A model generated the notes under the pieces. It searched no databases and was not told where the DNA came from. It saw only the letters and a program-made list of their open reading frames with translations. A DNA stretch of 64,000 bases, from the NCBI RefSeq assembly GCF_028713515.1, contig NZ_JAQTOD010000005.1:36300-100299 (forward strand). Reading direction: 5' to 3'. A program made the position numbers and the translations under genes. The first letter of the stretch is position 1. Each line of letters starts with the position of its first letter. This document shows, piece by piece, positions 20,448 through 27,009 of this stretch. The stretch comes from Sulfurimonas sp. Lineage in GTDB: Bacteria > Campylobacterota > Campylobacteria > Campylobacterales > Sulfurimonadaceae.

Positions 20448-21188
20448 ATGTCCCTGCAGGTAGGATGGAGATACTTTCCATTTAAGAGCGTTTTTATAGA
20501 TAGCGATGATTTGGTCTTTGGTGGTATAAAGATTGTCCAGCTATCAGATCTGCATTTGACAAAAAAAGTAAGTGTGAAGTACCTTGCAGAGTTAGTTGAA
20601 AAAATAAATGAGCTAGCTCCAGATTTGGTTGTTTTTACTGGCGACATATTGGAAGTCAATGCATTTGGTGTAAAAGAGCAGATAAAGACATTTGCTTCAC
20701 TAAACTCTCCAGCCTATTTTGTTAGCGGAAATCATGACATTATTTATGGGGTAAAACAGCTAGAGGAGCTCATGGAAAAAAGTGGCATCGTCTGTCTAGA
20801 TAATGCCATAGTTACAATAAAAATCAAAGAATTATTGATACAGTTGGTTGGACTAAGTGATAGATATGGTTTTTTAAAAGGTATAAAACGAATGCCAAAA
20901 GAGCTCTTTTTGAAATTAAATCCAGATTTACCGACAATTCTTTTAGCCCATCAACCAAAAGATGTAGAGCATATTGGCTCTTATCGTGTGGATATCCAAC
21001 TAAGCGGACACACACACGGCGGGCAATTTTTCCCATTTACCATTCTTGTAAAACTCTTTCAACCATATTTTTCAGGACTCTATAGATACAATAAAACAAA
21101 CCTATATGTTACAAATGGCTTGGGATATTGGGGTATAAAAGCTAGATATAAAGCCTCAAGTCAAATCCCAGTTTTAACGATTAATTAG
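20448..21188 (+). CDS. Calcineurin-like metallophosphoesterase (YaeI-type)
   Basis: This is a binuclear metal phosphoesterase. All five family motifs are present in order: QLSDLHL, FTGDIL, SGNHD, LLAHQP and LSGHTHGGQ. The 246-residue length, the C-terminal GLYRYNKTNLYVTNGLGYW segment and the phospholipid-type spacing resemble YaeI and LpxH-related enzymes. No signal peptide or transmembrane helix is evident, so it probably works at the cytoplasmic face. The substrate is unknown. Confidence 0.92.
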   Translation: MSLQVGWRYFPFKSVFIDSDDLVFGGIKIVQLSDLHLTKKVSVKYLAELVEKINELAPDLVVFTGDILEVNAFGVKEQIKTFASLNSPAYFVSGNHDIIYGVKQLEELMEKSGIVCLDNAIVTIKIKELLIQLVGLSDRYGFLKGIKRMPKELFLKLNPDLPTILLAHQPKDVEHIGSYRVDIQLSGHTHGGQFFPFTILVKLFQPYFSGLYRYNKTNLYVTNGLGYWGIKARYKASSQIPVLTIN

Positions 21189-21239: not shown

Positions 21240-21767
21240 ATGGCGGCAGGTTCTACGATATGCAAGGCGCAACTTAGTATTGCTGATATGGATAGGAACT
21301 ATTATGAGACACATGATGTCACGATAGCACAGCACCCATCAGAGACTGATTTGAGGCTTATGATTCGTCTTGCGGCTTTTGCTCTTAATGCATCCGAGAG
21401 ATTGGTAATTACTAAAGGTATCGGAGGCGATGATGAACCTGAACTGTGGGAGAAAAACTACGGCGGCGAGATAGAGTTGTGGATAGATTTGGGGCAGGTC
21501 GATGAGAAGCGGTTGCGAAAAGCTTGCGGCAGAAGCAAAAAAGTAATCGTTTATACCTACAACACTAACAGCGCAACAGCGTGGTGGAAGCAAAACGCGG
21601 CAACTTTTGCACGATTTAAAAATTTAAGCGTTATCCATTTGCACGCAGAGGGAATCGAAAAACTTTATGAGAGGTCAATGCGTCTTCAGTGCAATATCAG
21701 CGATAAGGAGTTGAGTTTGCATAGTGATAAGGGCGATGTGACGATAACTCAAGAGCAGTGGCAGTAA
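21240..21767 (+). CDS. yaeQ: YaeQ family protein
   Basis: The YaeQ family adopts a PD-(D/E)XK nuclease-like fold with no settled function. The 175-residue protein has the family features: an N-terminal beta strand STICKAQLSIADMDRNYYE, the ETDLRLMIRLAAFAL helix, GDDEPELWEKNYGGEIELWIDLG, and VIVYTYNTNSATAWW. The conserved acidic residues in the central region fit the nuclease-like active site. AAAGGAG precedes the ATG. It seems to be transcribed alone or with the genes before it. Confidence 0.9.
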   Translation: MAAGSTICKAQLSIADMDRNYYETHDVTIAQHPSETDLRLMIRLAAFALNASERLVITKGIGGDDEPELWEKNYGGEIELWIDLGQVDEKRLRKACGRSKKVIVYTYNTNSATAWWKQNAATFARFKNLSVIHLHAEGIEKLYERSMRLQCNISDKELSLHSDKGDVTITQEQWQ

Positions 21768-21872: not shown

Positions 21873-22343
21873 ATGAAGAAGTTTCTACTAGCTTTATGTT
21901 TAAGTGTTATGGCTCTGAGCGCAGGAGAGCTTGTTGTTGGTTCGCCTCTTGGTGCTTTAAATGAATTTAAGTTTGAGACCCCACAAGGGCGAGAGATGAA
22001 GATCTCTAAAAAACCAAAACTTATTATTGTTGCTTTTGAAAAGGATACCGGAGCGCTTGTAAATGAATTTTTGGCAACGAAAGAGCCATTTTATCTTATG
22101 AAAAATGGCTCCACTTTTATAGCTGATATTCATGAGATGCCGACACTTGTTACAAATATGTTTGCTCTGCCAAAACTAAAAAAGTATAAGCATCTTATCT
22201 ATCTTCATTATGATGAGAAATTTCATAAGGTTGTTCCGAACAAAAAAGATAAAGTAACACTTCTTTTTATAGATGGAGATAAAATTAAGAGCATCTCATA
22301 TATCTCTACAAAACAAGAGTTGCAATCAGCTATTGAAAAATGA
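21873..22343 (+). CDS. Exported hypothetical protein, 156 aa, first gene of the HCO-like operon
   Basis: The ORF track begins 15 codons upstream, but ATG at 21873 follows AAAAGGAAAT and starts a signal peptide MKKFLLALCLSVMALSAG. The mature periplasmic protein of about 138 residues has a possible thioredoxin-like pattern (PKLIIVAFEKDTGALVNEFL, then a C-terminal LLFIDGDKIKSISYIS) but no CxxC pair, so redox activity is not supported. It overlaps the permease gene by four bases (ATGA), tying it to the following ABC/HCO-like operon. Its role there is unknown. Confidence 0.75.
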   Translation: MKKFLLALCLSVMALSAGELVVGSPLGALNEFKFETPQGREMKISKKPKLIIVAFEKDTGALVNEFLATKEPFYLMKNGSTFIADIHEMPTLVTNMFALPKLKKYKHLIYLHYDEKFHKVVPNKKDKVTLLFIDGDKIKSISYISTKQELQSAIEK

Positions 22344-23413
22344 TTTCACTAAAAGCACTTAGTAAAAATCCATTTAAGAGTCTGCTAATATTTTCATCCA
22401 TCACTATTGCGGTGATGGCAATTTTTCTTATTAGTTCCGTTTCTGCTGGCATAATCGGGATGTACTCGAAGATGATTAAAACTGATGGGGATATCATCAT
22501 AACCCAAAAGGGTATCTCAGACACTTTTTTCTCAAATGTAGATATCTCACTTCTGGATAAAGTAAATGGCATAAAAGGGGTATCTGGCAGTTATGCGATG
22601 ATTGTCGGAGCTTCTCCTATCGGGCATATTCCCATTGCTGGGATTTACGGAACCACTAAAAATCACTTTTCTCACTATAGGCTTGAGAGCGGAGAGTACC
22701 CAAAAGATGGCGAGGTAATTTTAGGAAAAGGGCTGTCTAAACATTTTGTCACTAAAAGCATAAATGTTGGAAGCAAGAACTTTAAAATCTCTGGCGTTTA
22801 CAATAGCGATATTGGTTTTGAAGATGGCGGTGTTGTCATGAATATAGAGGATGCTGGCTTGCTTTTTAACCGCTCTGCGTCGTTTATTTTGGTATCTGTA
22901 AAAGAGCCAAAAGAGATAGATGATTTAGTAAAGAGCATCTCATTGTTGAGTAGTGACATTGAGGCAAAAACAACAAAGAGCTTTATAAAAGAGTACAACC
23001 AGTTTAAGATTATTGAAAATTCATCTTTTGTTATCTCATTTTTAGCCTTCAGTATGGGGCTTATGGGGATTGCTTCGGTTATGAGTATGATAGTAAACTC
23101 TCGAAAAGAGGAGTTTGGTATTATGCGGGCACTCGGGAAAAGTAGATTTTTTATTATCAAGAATCTCTTTTTTGAGACTCTGATTATGAGTATTTCGGCA
23201 TATATTTTTGCTCTCATCCTTAGTCTAATAATATTGACAATGCTCCCACACATCGAGATGCTTCAAGGGTATGTAAATGGCACGCTCTCTATGCAAACGG
23301 CACTTTTAGTTCTTATTTCTACTCTTGTTATGGCACTTCTGGGCTCTTTGATTCCTGCGTGGATTGCTTCTAAGACAGACCCTATTTTGCTAATAAATCA
23401 AGGATGCTCATGA
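22340..23413 (+). CDS. ABC transporter permease, FtsX/MacB/LolC type
   Basis: This 357-residue inner-membrane protein has the architecture of type VII ABC permeases: one N-terminal transmembrane helix (about 14-36), a periplasmic domain of roughly 190 residues, then three C-terminal helices with the FtsX-like sequence SMIVNSRKEEFGIMRALGKS. Such proteins use mechanotransmission to move lipoproteins, toxins or to control periplasmic enzymes rather than to import solutes. It overlaps its neighbours on both sides, so it is translationally coupled with the exported protein and the ATPase. Confidence 0.9.
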   Translation: MISLKALSKNPFKSLLIFSSITIAVMAIFLISSVSAGIIGMYSKMIKTDGDIIITQKGISDTFFSNVDISLLDKVNGIKGVSGSYAMIVGASPIGHIPIAGIYGTTKNHFSHYRLESGEYPKDGEVILGKGLSKHFVTKSINVGSKNFKISGVYNSDIGFEDGGVVMNIEDAGLLFNRSASFILVSVKEPKEIDDLVKSISLLSSDIEAKTTKSFIKEYNQFKIIENSSFVISFLAFSMGLMGIASVMSMIVNSRKEEFGIMRALGKSRFFIIKNLFFETLIMSISAYIFALILSLIILTMLPHIEMLQGYVNGTLSMQTALLVLISTLVMALLGSLIPAWIASKTDPILLINQGCS

Positions 23414-24033
23414 TAAAAGTTTCCAATATTTCGCACTTTTATGGTTCTGAGCAAGTGCTTTATGATATATCTTTTGAAGTAAAAGATGGCGAGTTTGTTT
23501 TTTTGAGCGGAGATAGCGGAAGTGGCAAATCTACACTTCTCTCTATTCTCTCCACGCTTCTAAAGCCATCTCATGGAGAGCTTTTTTTGGATAACACTCC
23601 GGTTGGGCAAATTGCAGATATTGACAAATTTCGTCAAAACAAGATAGGTTTTGTTTTTCAGTTTCACTACCTCATAAACTATCTTAGCATTTATGAAAAT
23701 ATTGCCCTTGCGGCACTTGATGATAAAAAGCAAAACATAAATGCTCTTTTGAGTGATTTGGGTATTTTGGAACTCTCCGCCCGCTATCCAAATGAGATTT
23801 CAGGTGGTCAGAGGCAGAGAGTCGCTCTTGCAAGGGCACTTATTAATGAACCAAAAATTATCTTTGCTGATGAACCGACTGGGAGTTTGGATTCTAAAAA
23901 TAGCAAAATTGTGTATGAGCTTTTGGCAAGAGCTTTAAAGCAGGGCACGACCGTTGTTGTCGCTTCACATGATTTAAAAGTCCAAAAGTACGCAACTAAA
24001 ACAGTAAGGCTAATAGATGGAAAAATTCAATAA
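23410..24033 (+). CDS. ABC transporter ATP-binding protein, LolD/MacB type
   Basis: This is the nucleotide-binding subunit for the preceding FtsX-like permease. It has Walker A GDSGSGKST, Q-loop VFQFHYLINYLS, signature EISGGQRQRVALARAL, Walker B KIIFADEPTGSLD and H-loop VASHD. The ORF track starts at 23404, but ATG at 23410 is better spaced from AAGGA and overlaps the permease stop (ATGA). Its own stop lies 17 bases inside the next gene. The 207-residue length is typical of LolD. Confidence 0.95.
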   Translation: MIKVSNISHFYGSEQVLYDISFEVKDGEFVFLSGDSGSGKSTLLSILSTLLKPSHGELFLDNTPVGQIADIDKFRQNKIGFVFQFHYLINYLSIYENIALAALDDKKQNINALLSDLGILELSARYPNEISGGQRQRVALARALINEPKIIFADEPTGSLDSKNSKIVYELLARALKQGTTVVVASHDLKVQKYATKTVRLIDGKIQ

Positions 24034-25558
24034 GCTTATTCATGACATTGTTCCTATTTGGGCATGGATATTTTTAGCATCTGTTTTTGTTGGAGCGCTC
24101 TATTCGGCGCAACTCATCGGTTTTACTCTTTTTGACAAAACGCTTCTTGAGCCAACAACTGCTCGCTCTTTGCATATAACGCTTATGCTTTATGGTCCCG
24201 TTATGCTCGCTCTTTCGCTCCTTCCTTTTGCGCTTTTTAGCAGAGATGGTTTAAATCTTGATGGCGCTGTTTTGCCACTAAAAACCTACTTCTTTTTATG
24301 GCATCTATTTTTATTTATGGCTGTTGTATCAATTTTGCTTGGCGTGCAGAGAGGTTTGCCATTTTATGATTTTGCTTATGAGCTCAACTTTATCCTAGCA
24401 TCTTCTGGTATTTTTTATATTGTTGCAATATTTAAAATCATTAAGCAATACAAGGTAGTGCCACTTTGGGTAAAAGTCTCTAAAACACTGCTTTTTATAG
24501 CTCCAATTTCGCTTTTAGTTTTAATGAATCCAACTTTTGGTCAAGTTGAAAAAACACTATCAGGTCCTCATGGCGACAATACGCTGGGTATGAGTTTTAC
24601 GCTGATTCCTCTTTTTTATCTTCTTATAAAACTTCACACAAAAGAGAAATTTATTCCAAAATGGCATATATTTTGGGTTTTACCGCTGGTTGCTTATGCT
24701 GCATCTATCGCAACTCGTATTTTTAGAGGTGAGCTATCTTATGGTGAAGAGTGGGTTTATCAGTGGCTGACTTTTGCTTATTTGCCTCTGCTTGTGAAGT
24801 GGTGCATAGATGCCAAGCTTACTCTTAGGTCAGATGCTTATCTCATCATCTCTATCTGGGCGTTTTTATTTGTCATGATTCAAGGAAATATTCTCTTTAT
24901 CCCGGAGATTCGTTGGGTTTTTCACAGAAATGATCTGGTTGTGGCACATGCTCATGTCGCCATCGGAGTTGGTATCTTTTTTATGGCGCTTAGTCTGCTT
25001 AGTTACTTCTACAAACTGCCTCAAAAGTTTGCAAATTTTTGGTTTTTAGTTGTGGGAGTTATATTTTTCTCGCTAACAATTGCTGGTTTTAGTGAAGCGG
25101 GATATATAAATCTTGACATAGTTTTGATGCTTCAAATACGCTTTGTAGGCGGAGTTTTAGCTGTTGGAGGGCTTTTTTATTTTATAACTAAAGAGATGAA
25201 ACTACCAAAAGCAAACGCACTGACACTTTACCATCTAAACGGTTTTGCCTCTGATGGTTTGGGTGCCATGATTTTGTTTTTATCTGCGCCGTTTTTGTTT
25301 GATTTTTTAGGGTTTAAATTTGCTCAAGAGTATTATCTTGTCTTTGGTTTTATGGGTTTTGTCGGTATCTTGCATCTGGTTGGAGTCTATAGAGATGCAC
25401 ATCTTTTTGCATGGCTCACCTCAATAGCTCGTCTTATCACAGGAACTATTTTCTTATCTCTCTTTTATCTTCACACTATTGATATATTAGGTCTGCTTGT
25501 CGGTTTTTATGATGTATCTTACGCACTAATTTATATGCTTTTTAGAAATCGCCTATGA
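24017..25558 (+). CDS. Divergent heme-copper oxidase subunit I-like membrane protein (possible gNOR-type)
   Basis: The 513-residue protein has about 12 transmembrane helices and aligns by eye with CcoN/NorB: RSLHITLMLYGP places His53 at the low-spin heme ligand of helix II, and AHAHVAIGVGIF places His311 and His313 at the helix X pair (high- and low-spin heme). The helix VI segment aligned to CcoN's GHNAVGFFLT reads GDNTLGMSFT, so Asp187 replaces the CuB-binding His. The helix VII HH pair is also absent: the aligned segment is ATRIFRGEL. It therefore keeps the heme ligands but not the usual CuB site. gNOR-type nitric oxide reductases of epsilonproteobacteria are known to alter these ligands, so a gNOR-like role is the leading guess, not a conclusion. 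It overlaps the ATPase gene by 17 bases. Confidence 0.72.
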   Translation: MEKFNKLIHDIVPIWAWIFLASVFVGALYSAQLIGFTLFDKTLLEPTTARSLHITLMLYGPVMLALSLLPFALFSRDGLNLDGAVLPLKTYFFLWHLFLFMAVVSILLGVQRGLPFYDFAYELNFILASSGIFYIVAIFKIIKQYKVVPLWVKVSKTLLFIAPISLLVLMNPTFGQVEKTLSGPHGDNTLGMSFTLIPLFYLLIKLHTKEKFIPKWHIFWVLPLVAYAASIATRIFRGELSYGEEWVYQWLTFAYLPLLVKWCIDAKLTLRSDAYLIISIWAFLFVMIQGNILFIPEIRWVFHRNDLVVAHAHVAIGVGIFFMALSLLSYFYKLPQKFANFWFLVVGVIFFSLTIAGFSEAGYINLDIVLMLQIRFVGGVLAVGGLFYFITKEMKLPKANALTLYHLNGFASDGLGAMILFLSAPFLFDFLGFKFAQEYYLVFGFMGFVGILHLVGVYRDAHLFAWLTSIARLITGTIFLSLFYLHTIDILGLLVGFYDVSYALIYMLFRNRL

Positions 25559-26463
25559 TATACTCGAGCGCTTTAGCACTTCTTTTAGGATTTGAGCTAA
25601 GCTACTATCTTCTAATCATTCAAACTGGAGTAGTGGCGCATTTTCACTCAGATATGCTGACTCTTTTTCCAATGTTTATGGGCGGTGTAGCAGGTACGAT
25701 TATGAGTGGTTTTTCTTGGGGGAAGATAACAAATCCAATTCATAAAATCATGCTGGCTCTTCTTCTGCAACTACTACTCTCTTTTTCATACCCAGAATAC
25801 AACCTTTTCACTCTTGTTTTGCTTGGTCTCTCTGTTGGAATGATGGCTCCTTTGGGGATTTATCTCTTTAAGTCACATCAGCAAAAAGAGCTCTTTTTTG
25901 CTCTGGCAATTGCTTATTCAACAGGTACATATCTTTTTAAGACTAGCGCAGACGGCAGAATTTGGATGGCGGTTTGCTTTACGCTAATTCCACTCTTTAG
26001 TGCGGTTGTGTTGCGAAAATATAGAGTTCAAACAGAAAATAAGAGAGAGTCATTTCCTATAGCTTCATACCTGCTTTTAATGTTATGGATACTTCTGGAT
26101 TCTAATCTTTTTGAGACGCTATTAAGACACAGCAACATAAATATATGGTCAAACTACACTTTTGTTATCATAGCTTTTCATATTTTAGGGCTTCTTGGTG
26201 GCTACTTTATAAAGATGCCAAATTACAAAAAACATATATTTATAGCTCTACTTTTTGTGGGGAGTTACTCTGTTTCATATCTTGAATTGCCTCTTGCGCT
26301 TGCAATGGTTTATCCGTTTGTTATCTCTTATTATAATGTTGTTGTTTTTACTACGCTGACAAAAGAGATGAGTTTAACGAAGCTCTCTTTTATGATGATT
26401 TTTGTTGGCTGGGTTGCATCTGGTGCTGGTTTAGCGATTGCCCTCGGTGGATTTTTCCATTGA
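25555..26463 (+). CDS. Polytopic membrane protein, 302 aa, unknown, partner of the HCO-like gene
   Basis: I do not recognise a family. About ten hydrophobic segments are visible with a few His residues near the N-terminus (GVVAHFHSDML) and a GGVAGTIMSGFSWGK segment. The ATG overlaps the stop of the HCO-like gene by four bases (ATGA), so it is almost certainly cotranslated with it. The loose pattern of small residues could suggest an MFS-like or second-subunit fold. Its function may be tied to assembly or electron supply for the HCO-like protein, which is inference from position only. Confidence 0.7.
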   Translation: MIYSSALALLLGFELSYYLLIIQTGVVAHFHSDMLTLFPMFMGGVAGTIMSGFSWGKITNPIHKIMLALLLQLLLSFSYPEYNLFTLVLLGLSVGMMAPLGIYLFKSHQQKELFFALAIAYSTGTYLFKTSADGRIWMAVCFTLIPLFSAVVLRKYRVQTENKRESFPIASYLLLMLWILLDSNLFETLLRHSNINIWSNYTFVIIAFHILGLLGGYFIKMPNYKKHIFIALLFVGSYSVSYLELPLALAMVYPFVISYYNVVVFTTLTKEMSLTKLSFMMIFVGWVASGAGLAIALGGFFH

Positions 26464-26490
26464 GTTGCAGTTTAAATTTAAAGGATAAAA

Positions 26491-27009
26491 ATGAGATATT
26501 TAGTTTTAGCATTATTTTTGGTATTTCCGCTTCTGGCTGGAAATTTAGAACTTAAAAAAGGTTCAGTTGCGGCTCACACAGAGATGGCAATGGATAAGAC
26601 AATTGATCCATCGAGCAATTCTCTTCATGGAGAAGTTAGTATGGATGGCGAGGATGTAACATCACTAAAGGGAAAGTTTTGGGTTGATTTGACTCTTTTT
26701 AAGAGTGATAACAGCAAAAGAGATACAAATATGTACAAAGATATGGCAACTGACAAGTTTAAAGTAGCATCTTTTACAATCTCTTCAGTTGTTAAGAAAG
26801 GTGATGGCTACGCAATCAATGGAGTTATGAATTTTCATGGAGTAGAAAAACCAATGAGTGCTGATGCAAAAATCAGTGCAAAAGATGGCGGGCTAACTAT
26901 AGAAGCAAAGTCAAAAATGTTATTTAGCGATTATGGCATGAAGATGCCGTGTATGGTTTTTATGTGTGTTCGTGATGAAGTTGACTTAACAATTAAGGCC
27001 AATTTTTAG
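26491..27009 (+). CDS. YceI-like periplasmic protein
   Basis: YceI proteins are small periplasmic lipocalin-like proteins that bind isoprenoids such as ubiquinone precursors. A signal peptide MRYLVLALFLVFPLLAG is followed by a beta-rich domain with the family pattern LHGEVSMDGEDVTSLKGKFWVDL, DKFKVASFTISS, GVMNFHGVEKPMS and a late short KMPCMVFMCVRDEVDL. Two Cys residues lie near the C-terminus. The gene is 27 bases after the membrane protein gene, so it may be in the same operon, which would fit a quinone link to the HCO-like protein. Confidence 0.87.
   Translation: MRYLVLALFLVFPLLAGNLELKKGSVAAHTEMAMDKTIDPSSNSLHGEVSMDGEDVTSLKGKFWVDLTLFKSDNSKRDTNMYKDMATDKFKVASFTISSVVKKGDGYAINGVMNFHGVEKPMSADAKISAKDGGLTIEAKSKMLFSDYGMKMPCMVFMCVRDEVDLTIKANF

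Follow-up and report, generated by a model that had tools for sequence, protein, structure and literature searches.

A CcoN-like heme-copper oxidase homologue that has probably lost its CuB site in a conserved MacB/Lol-type ABC transporter module of Campylobacterota, with a possible role in envelope lipid or quinone maintenance

What might a protein resembling a heme-copper oxidase (HCO) do in an operon that also encodes an ABC transporter of the FtsX/LolD type? This question is raised by a 64,000-nucleotide stretch of Sulfurimonas sp. DNA (contig NZ_JAQTOD010000005.1, positions 36,300 to 100,299 of the forward strand; hereafter the window), which is part of a 2.0-Mb genome in five contigs (G000) whose close relatives are metagenome-assembled genomes of Sulfurimonas. 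Six genes in the same direction, with brief overlaps, occupy positions 21873-27009 of the window and are here called A to F; a phosphoesterase gene associated with them is called MPE, G and L numbers denote genomes and loci, and f numbers denote families. To our knowledge, characterised HCO proteins are either terminal oxidases or nitric oxide (NO) reductases, and a sequence-only reading of the window had proposed that the HCO-like protein, D, is a gNOR-type NO reductase. As judged from profiles and alignments, D is instead an HCO homologue nearest to the cbb3 oxidase subunit CcoN, in which the heme histidines have been kept and the CuB site has been lost; the operon as a whole is one functional unit, and its linkage is well supported.

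The match of D itself to the Pfam COX1 family was weak (23.3 bits; cut-off 34.8), and D relatives from another genus passed the cut-off (38.4 bits) over nearly the full length of the profile (positions 9-404). A profile built from 21 D proteins matched CcoN structures (6xkw, E = 7e-6; 3mk7, E = 0.04), and hhalign aligned D residues 17-395 with CcoN residues 22-477 (E = 3e-5, probability 72%). When this D profile was compared with the HCO enzymes of Campylobacterota, CcoN scored clearly best, with most CcoN proteins at about 16-19 bits and the best NorB and gNOR domains at 5.7 and 1.8 bits, respectively. The CcoN-like core spans about residues 1-395 (about 12 helices), and residues 396-513 form about four additional helices. 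Sequence profiles thus support an HCO fold for D; the AlphaFold2 (AF2) model, computed from five close sequences only, was of low quality (predicted local distance difference test score, pLDDT, of 51), and its Foldseek matches, designed proteins and XPR1 at E of about 1, were not used.

Residue conservation was assessed in a set of 62 D sequences that covers five families. H53, H311, and H313 (helices II and X), which align with the heme ligands of CcoN, were present in 62/62 sequences, as were D187, Y227, R234, H303, and H453; D306 and the heme-site residue R50 were likewise invariant. Both HMMER and hhalign placed D187 on the CuB histidine of helix VI in CcoN (motif 'GHN'). When D was aligned to CcoN of Pseudomonas (3mk7), the tyrosine of helix VII was matched by Y227 and the second histidine of that helix by R234, and the Y227-R234 spacing of seven is the same as the Tyr-His spacing of CcoN. 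R234 thus probably stands in place of this helix VII CuB histidine, in a stretch that hhalign gaps; whatever the exact register, no conserved His-His pair was found in helix VII across the 62 sequences. The three heme histidines, Asp187, and the missing helix VII pair had all been named in the sequence-only reading, and these assignments held.

The NO reductase assignment fared differently. The genome that carries D also encodes a CcoN (L055), a NorB accompanied by a NorC-like gene (L056), and an enzyme resembling gNOR (L057; G000:C1:167225-168859), all named from motifs and gene context. L057 presents an aspartate in helix VI ('WWGLD') and a His-His pair in helix VII ('SHHLLAD'), and a cupredoxin-like subunit II gene adjoins it; no gene for a subunit II partner was found in the D operon or in the loci of its relatives. 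Among 397 Campylobacterota genomes, 15 carry both D and gNOR, 45 carry D alone, and 30 carry gNOR alone (60 with D and 45 with gNOR in total), a weak association (odds ratio 3.4, uncorrected for kinship) in which three quarters of the D genomes have no gNOR. The identification of D as a gNOR was rejected because only the aspartate is common to both, His-His pair and subunit II are lacking, CcoN outscores gNOR, and 45 of the 60 D genomes are without gNOR. A broader proposal is that D binds or reduces NO by a gNOR-like chemistry that involves an aspartate, or that its high-spin heme is a sensor of O2 or NO from which a signal reaches the ABC transporter; it is consistent with the retention of the helix VII tyrosine and of the proximal histidine at the high-spin site, with the helix VI aspartate shared with L057, and with a co-occurrence slightly above chance, but the same absences and genome counts, together with the presence of separate gNOR-like and NorBC genes dedicated to NO in the genome of D, make it improbable. 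The weaker alternative offered by the sequence-only reading, another redox membrane complex, fits the data.

The evidence for a joint function comes from comparison of loci. In the 24 loci from the family of the window genome, B to F, nearly always with A, were found in the same order, the exceptions being one truncated contig, one insertion, and one deletion. Across five families at least three orders were observed (A-B-C-D-E-F, B-C-D-E-F-A, and E-F-B-C-D, the last sometimes followed by A); because gene content stays constant while gene order changes, this is strong evidence that the genes of the module act together. The sequence-only reading had named a broken gene order in relatives as grounds for refutation; the order is indeed different in other families, and the constant content supports linkage all the same. 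The distribution of E over the 397 Campylobacterota genomes is identical to that of D: both are carried by the same 60, and E is absent from the remaining 337, without a single discordant genome (Fisher value of 1e-72, which overstates independence because the genomes are related); E is thus an obligate partner of D. Within its own family, D is carried by 49 of 151 genomes, and no relatives of D or E were found on plasmids or viral contigs. The transporter genes B and C stay with D in the loci examined; the transporter, which had earlier been called odd for a reductase, belongs to the system and is not a stray neighbour.

B matched both MacB_PCD and FtsX (E = 2e-15 each), with structure-profile matches to MacB, YtrF, LolF, and LolE, and probably acts as a homodimer. 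C matched ABC_tran (E = 3e-34). Against family models, B scored 59 bits with LolC/E (cut-off 362) and C scored 180 bits with LolD (equivalog cut-off 308); an equivalog-level match to the LolCDE lipoprotein exporter was reached by neither the permease nor the ATPase. F is a divergent member of the YceI family (Pfam YceI, 65.7 bits, cut-off 23.7, E = 8e-18) and follows E in all gene orders. That B and C are members of the MacB/Lol class, that F is a lipocalin, and that a phosphodiesterase is attached would also be expected if the module served strict Lol/MacB-type trafficking of lipid or lipoprotein, B/C extruding lipid to F and D having a structural or sensory role without electron transfer. 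We regard this as unlikely, since the invariant heme ligands and R50 would be needless in a purely structural subunit and none of the module proteins could be recognised as a partner of the LolA/LolB or MacA type. Even less probable is a role in heme or oxidase assembly, with B/C exporting or extracting heme as HrtBA does and D serving as a heme store or cbb3 scaffold. D is indeed nearest to CcoN, Sco proteins are among the structure matches of A, and in length B (357 aa) is close to HrtB and C (209 aa) to HrtA; however, HrtB was absent from the structure matches of B at E <= 1e-6, among which MacB and Lol proteins were present, so that HrtBA-like heme export is unsupported, and HCO genes occur in 58 of 61 sampled genomes of the family, compared with 49 of 151 for D, which implies that oxidase assembly is independent of the module.

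A Pfam search of A and E gave no family match and nothing consistent across members. A is cysteine-free; its AF2 model (pLDDT 67) gave Foldseek matches to peroxiredoxin, ResA/TlpA, Sco, and Campylobacter jejuni FetE (8t4c), and A is predicted from this model to adopt a thioredoxin-like fold without a CXXC motif. E presented no match in Pfam or in the PDB, and on comparison it was rejected as a relative of D or CcoN. The FetE match recalls the FetABCDEF system of C. jejuni, where the FetM/FetP permease receives reducing power from thioredoxins, a polytopic membrane protein, and an ABC transporter of the FtsX type (PMC10783030). Redox-assisted uptake of iron or another metal would account for the similar parts of the module (ABC transporter, polytopic redox protein, and thioredoxin fold), and FetE is one among several matches of A; we nevertheless consider such uptake improbable, as the module has a single permease, an A protein without cysteines, and no DUF2318 or FetM/FetP-like gene, and as the YceI protein and the phosphodiesterase would be left unexplained.

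This phosphodiesterase is encoded by a seventh gene of the module. MPE matched Pfam Metallophos (E = 8e-15) and, without reaching their cut-offs, the NCBIfam models LpxG (E = 4e-33) and YaeI (E = 5e-32); it adjoins the module across 13 genus groups. MPE occupies the slot in its own genus, f7, f10, and one f4 genus; a metallo-beta-lactamase (MBL) fold enzyme is found there instead in another f1 genus, three f4 genera, and f11. The closest structure to this MBL-fold enzyme (the L046 protein) was NAPE-PLD (4qn9; E = 1e-37, residues 44-296), an enzyme that hydrolyses phosphatidylethanolamine modified by aldehydes from lipid peroxidation (PMC12214272). None of the sampled loci contained both MPE and the MBL-fold enzyme, and a few contained neither. 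Because two unrelated phosphodiesterase folds share one slot, the module appears to include the cleavage of a phosphodiester, probably that of a lipid; the substrate is putative.

Gene content, its conservation, the co-occurrence of D and E, and the residues aligned with the heme and CuB sites are directly supported by the data. The linkage of D to a lipid-type transporter, a lipid carrier, and a probable lipid-cutting enzyme, which is maintained in much of the phylum, suggests envelope maintenance and not NO reduction. We tentatively propose, by analogy, an envelope complex for redox maintenance of lipid or quinone that resembles BcnA/LcoA, with D as a diheme electron-transfer protein. D would represent an HCO fold after loss of oxygen or NO chemistry, with low-spin and high-spin heme sites retained, and would most likely take electrons from the quinol pool and deliver them to the periplasmic face. 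The cargo of F may be a damaged lipid or else a quinone of the isoprenoid type; B/C would act as an ATP-driven extruder of the MacB/Lol type that raises lipid from the outer leaflet to F, D would re-reduce the cargo of F, A and E may be structural or hand-over partners, and the phosphodiesterase (MPE or NAPE-PLD-like) would strip modified lipid head groups. The more specific picture, slightly less probable than the proposal as a whole, is that a CuB-stripped HCO fold forms the redox arm of a MacB/Lol-type transporter, in which the YceI lipocalin is loaded with reduced quinone or oxidised lipids are repaired, and an exchangeable phosphodiesterase tailors the lipid.

Lol-type transporters handle lipidated cargo. 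Because of such cargo, of the BcnA/LcoA pair, and of the action of NAPE-PLD on aldehyde-modified phosphatidylethanolamine, D may be read as a stand-in for the cytochrome b561 of BcnA/LcoA, with an ABC extruder added. In Burkholderia, BcnA (a YceI protein) and LcoA (a cytochrome b561) guard membranes against lipid peroxyl radicals, and LcoA has been proposed to re-reduce ubiquinone held by BcnA (PMC9113575). We infer every biochemical step of the proposal, that is, heme binding, electron transfer, the lipid substrate, and the direction of transport, and our confidence therefore stays tentative. Several points weigh against it: the module operon contains no cytochrome b561 (D is not one); bacterial lipids are poorly peroxidisable, according to the BcnA paper (PMC9113575); F is a divergent YceI protein, and two further YceI proteins are encoded elsewhere in the genome; its ligand, like the substrates of MPE and the MBL-fold enzyme, is putative; the structure model of D is poor (pLDDT 51); and MPE or the MBL-fold enzyme could be neighbours without a shared role, given the few loci with neither.

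Natural damage to the module was observed in three genomes. In G141, a complete single-contig genome of the same genus, D presents an in-frame deletion of about 427 codons that leaves an 86-codon remnant (L044:6634-6891), while A, B, C, E, and F are intact; the equivalents of the deletion ends in L039 share the short repeat ATGCTTG, as slippage would give. Unless it reflects an assembly error, G141 is a natural knock-out of D. In G483 (L138, G483:C1:1208661-1210187), D contains eight in-frame stop codons, and in G201 (L122), an insertion of about 0.9 kb with two open reading frames on the opposite strand interrupts E; these two represent independent decay within the f10 group. The system is dispensable in some lineages, and the natural loss of D from otherwise intact modules offers a direct test of function.

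No relevant description of CuB-less HCO homologues, or of an operon combining HCO, YceI, and LolD proteins, was found in the literature, in a search outside which most subscription journals lay. The superfamilies of all parts except A and E were already known; what appears to be new is a CuB-less, CcoN-like HCO protein in an ABC transporter module. If our proposal is true, the HCO fold, in a broadly conserved clade with heme sites but without CuB, would have been reused for another redox task and coupled to an ATP-driven extruder, a function would be given to a module present in 60 of 397 sampled Campylobacterota genomes and including two genes (A and E) without a family, and the little-known field of bacterial lipid-peroxide defence could be widened.

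The layout of the locus (Table 1) agrees with the sequence-only reading in its gene list, in its protein types (FtsX-type permease, LolD-type ATPase, HCO-like D, and YceI-type F, all by profile matches), and in its overlaps of 4, 4, 17, and 4 bases (A/B, B/C, C/D, and D/E), the second of which is 4 only with the ATG at 23410 as the start of C and is 10 with the start at 23404. That reading stood for the six genes and overlooked MPE as well as the additional C-terminal helices of D. A yaeQ gene (window positions 21240-21764) separates MPE from A here; in sampled relatives with such an arrangement, MPE lies directly 5' of A. In G006, a 3.8-kb block between D and E (L042:9100-12900) encodes two exported proteins (330 and 136 aa), a histidine kinase, and a response regulator; relatives of the two exported proteins also occur in L045. 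At L123-L131, in f7 and one f10 locus, the phosphoesterase gene is immediately followed by genes for a response regulator and a histidine kinase in the same orientation, an arrangement that is not seen elsewhere; a two-component system may therefore control the module at these loci, and the kinase/regulator pair is taken to be an accessory of some families only. Only at two loci, from two families, is there a cytochrome b561-family gene near the module, a few kb upstream of it (L124:2266-2922 and L136:2379-2993); this recalls the known link between YceI and b561. One of the two further YceI proteins of the window genome (L139 and L141, G000:C1) is canonical and encoded beside a MarR-type regulator; no cytochrome b561 gene was found next to these two YceI genes within the stretch seen.

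Table 1. Genes of the module in the window, with the evidence for each assignment.
Feature	Position	Strand	Evidence
MPE, calcineurin-fold phosphoesterase (LpxG/YaeI-like)	20448..21188	+	Metallophos, LpxG, and YaeI profiles; recurrence beside the module
A, exported protein of 156 aa with a predicted thioredoxin-like fold (no CXXC)	21873..22343	+	AF2/Foldseek; moves with the module
B, FtsX/MacB-type (MacB_PCD + FtsX) ABC permease, 357 aa	22340..23413	+	Pfam; structure-profile matches
C, ABC ATPase of LolD/FtsE/MacB type, 209 aa	23404..24033 (alternative start 23410)	+	ABC_tran; LolD model
D, HCO-like 513-aa protein, CcoN-like core and extra C-terminal helices	24017..25558	+	COX1/CcoN profiles; residue conservation
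E, 302-aa polytopic membrane protein, partner of D	25555..26463	+	Co-occurrence with D
F, YceI-family periplasmic lipocalin	26491..27009	+	Pfam YceI

Among known systems, CcoN shares with D a core of about 12 helices (D residues 17-395), a 'RSLH' motif (R50 and H53) like the 'RPLH' of CcoN, the helix X pattern 'H..D....H.H', and the helix VII tyrosine; D differs in the absence of CuB histidines (Asp187 and, probably, Arg234 in their place), in its added C-terminal helices, in an operon without CcoO/CcoP-like cytochrome c subunits, and in its link to an ABC transporter. The gNOR-like L057 resembles D in that an aspartate replaces the CuB histidine of helix VI, but it keeps the helix VII His-His pair and subunit II, neither of which D has, and the D profile barely scores it. 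B and C belong by profile to the same class as the MacB/LolCDE type VII ABC extruders, while falling far below the LolC/E and LolD family cut-offs (59/362 and 180/308 bits). In FetABCDEF, too, an FtsX-type ABC transporter is accompanied by a polytopic redox protein and a thioredoxin-fold partner, whereas our module is without a second permease, DUF2318, a CXXC thioredoxin, and FetMP. NAPE-PLD shares the MBL fold with the enzyme of the MBL-bearing genera, for which it is the nearest solved structure; that enzyme is bacterial and putative, and the window genome has MPE in the slot. BcnA/LcoA and the module both combine, in one operon, a YceI lipocalin with a membrane protein that presents b-type heme ligands; in the module, this heme protein is an HCO homologue, and an ABC transporter, A, E, and a phosphodiesterase are added.

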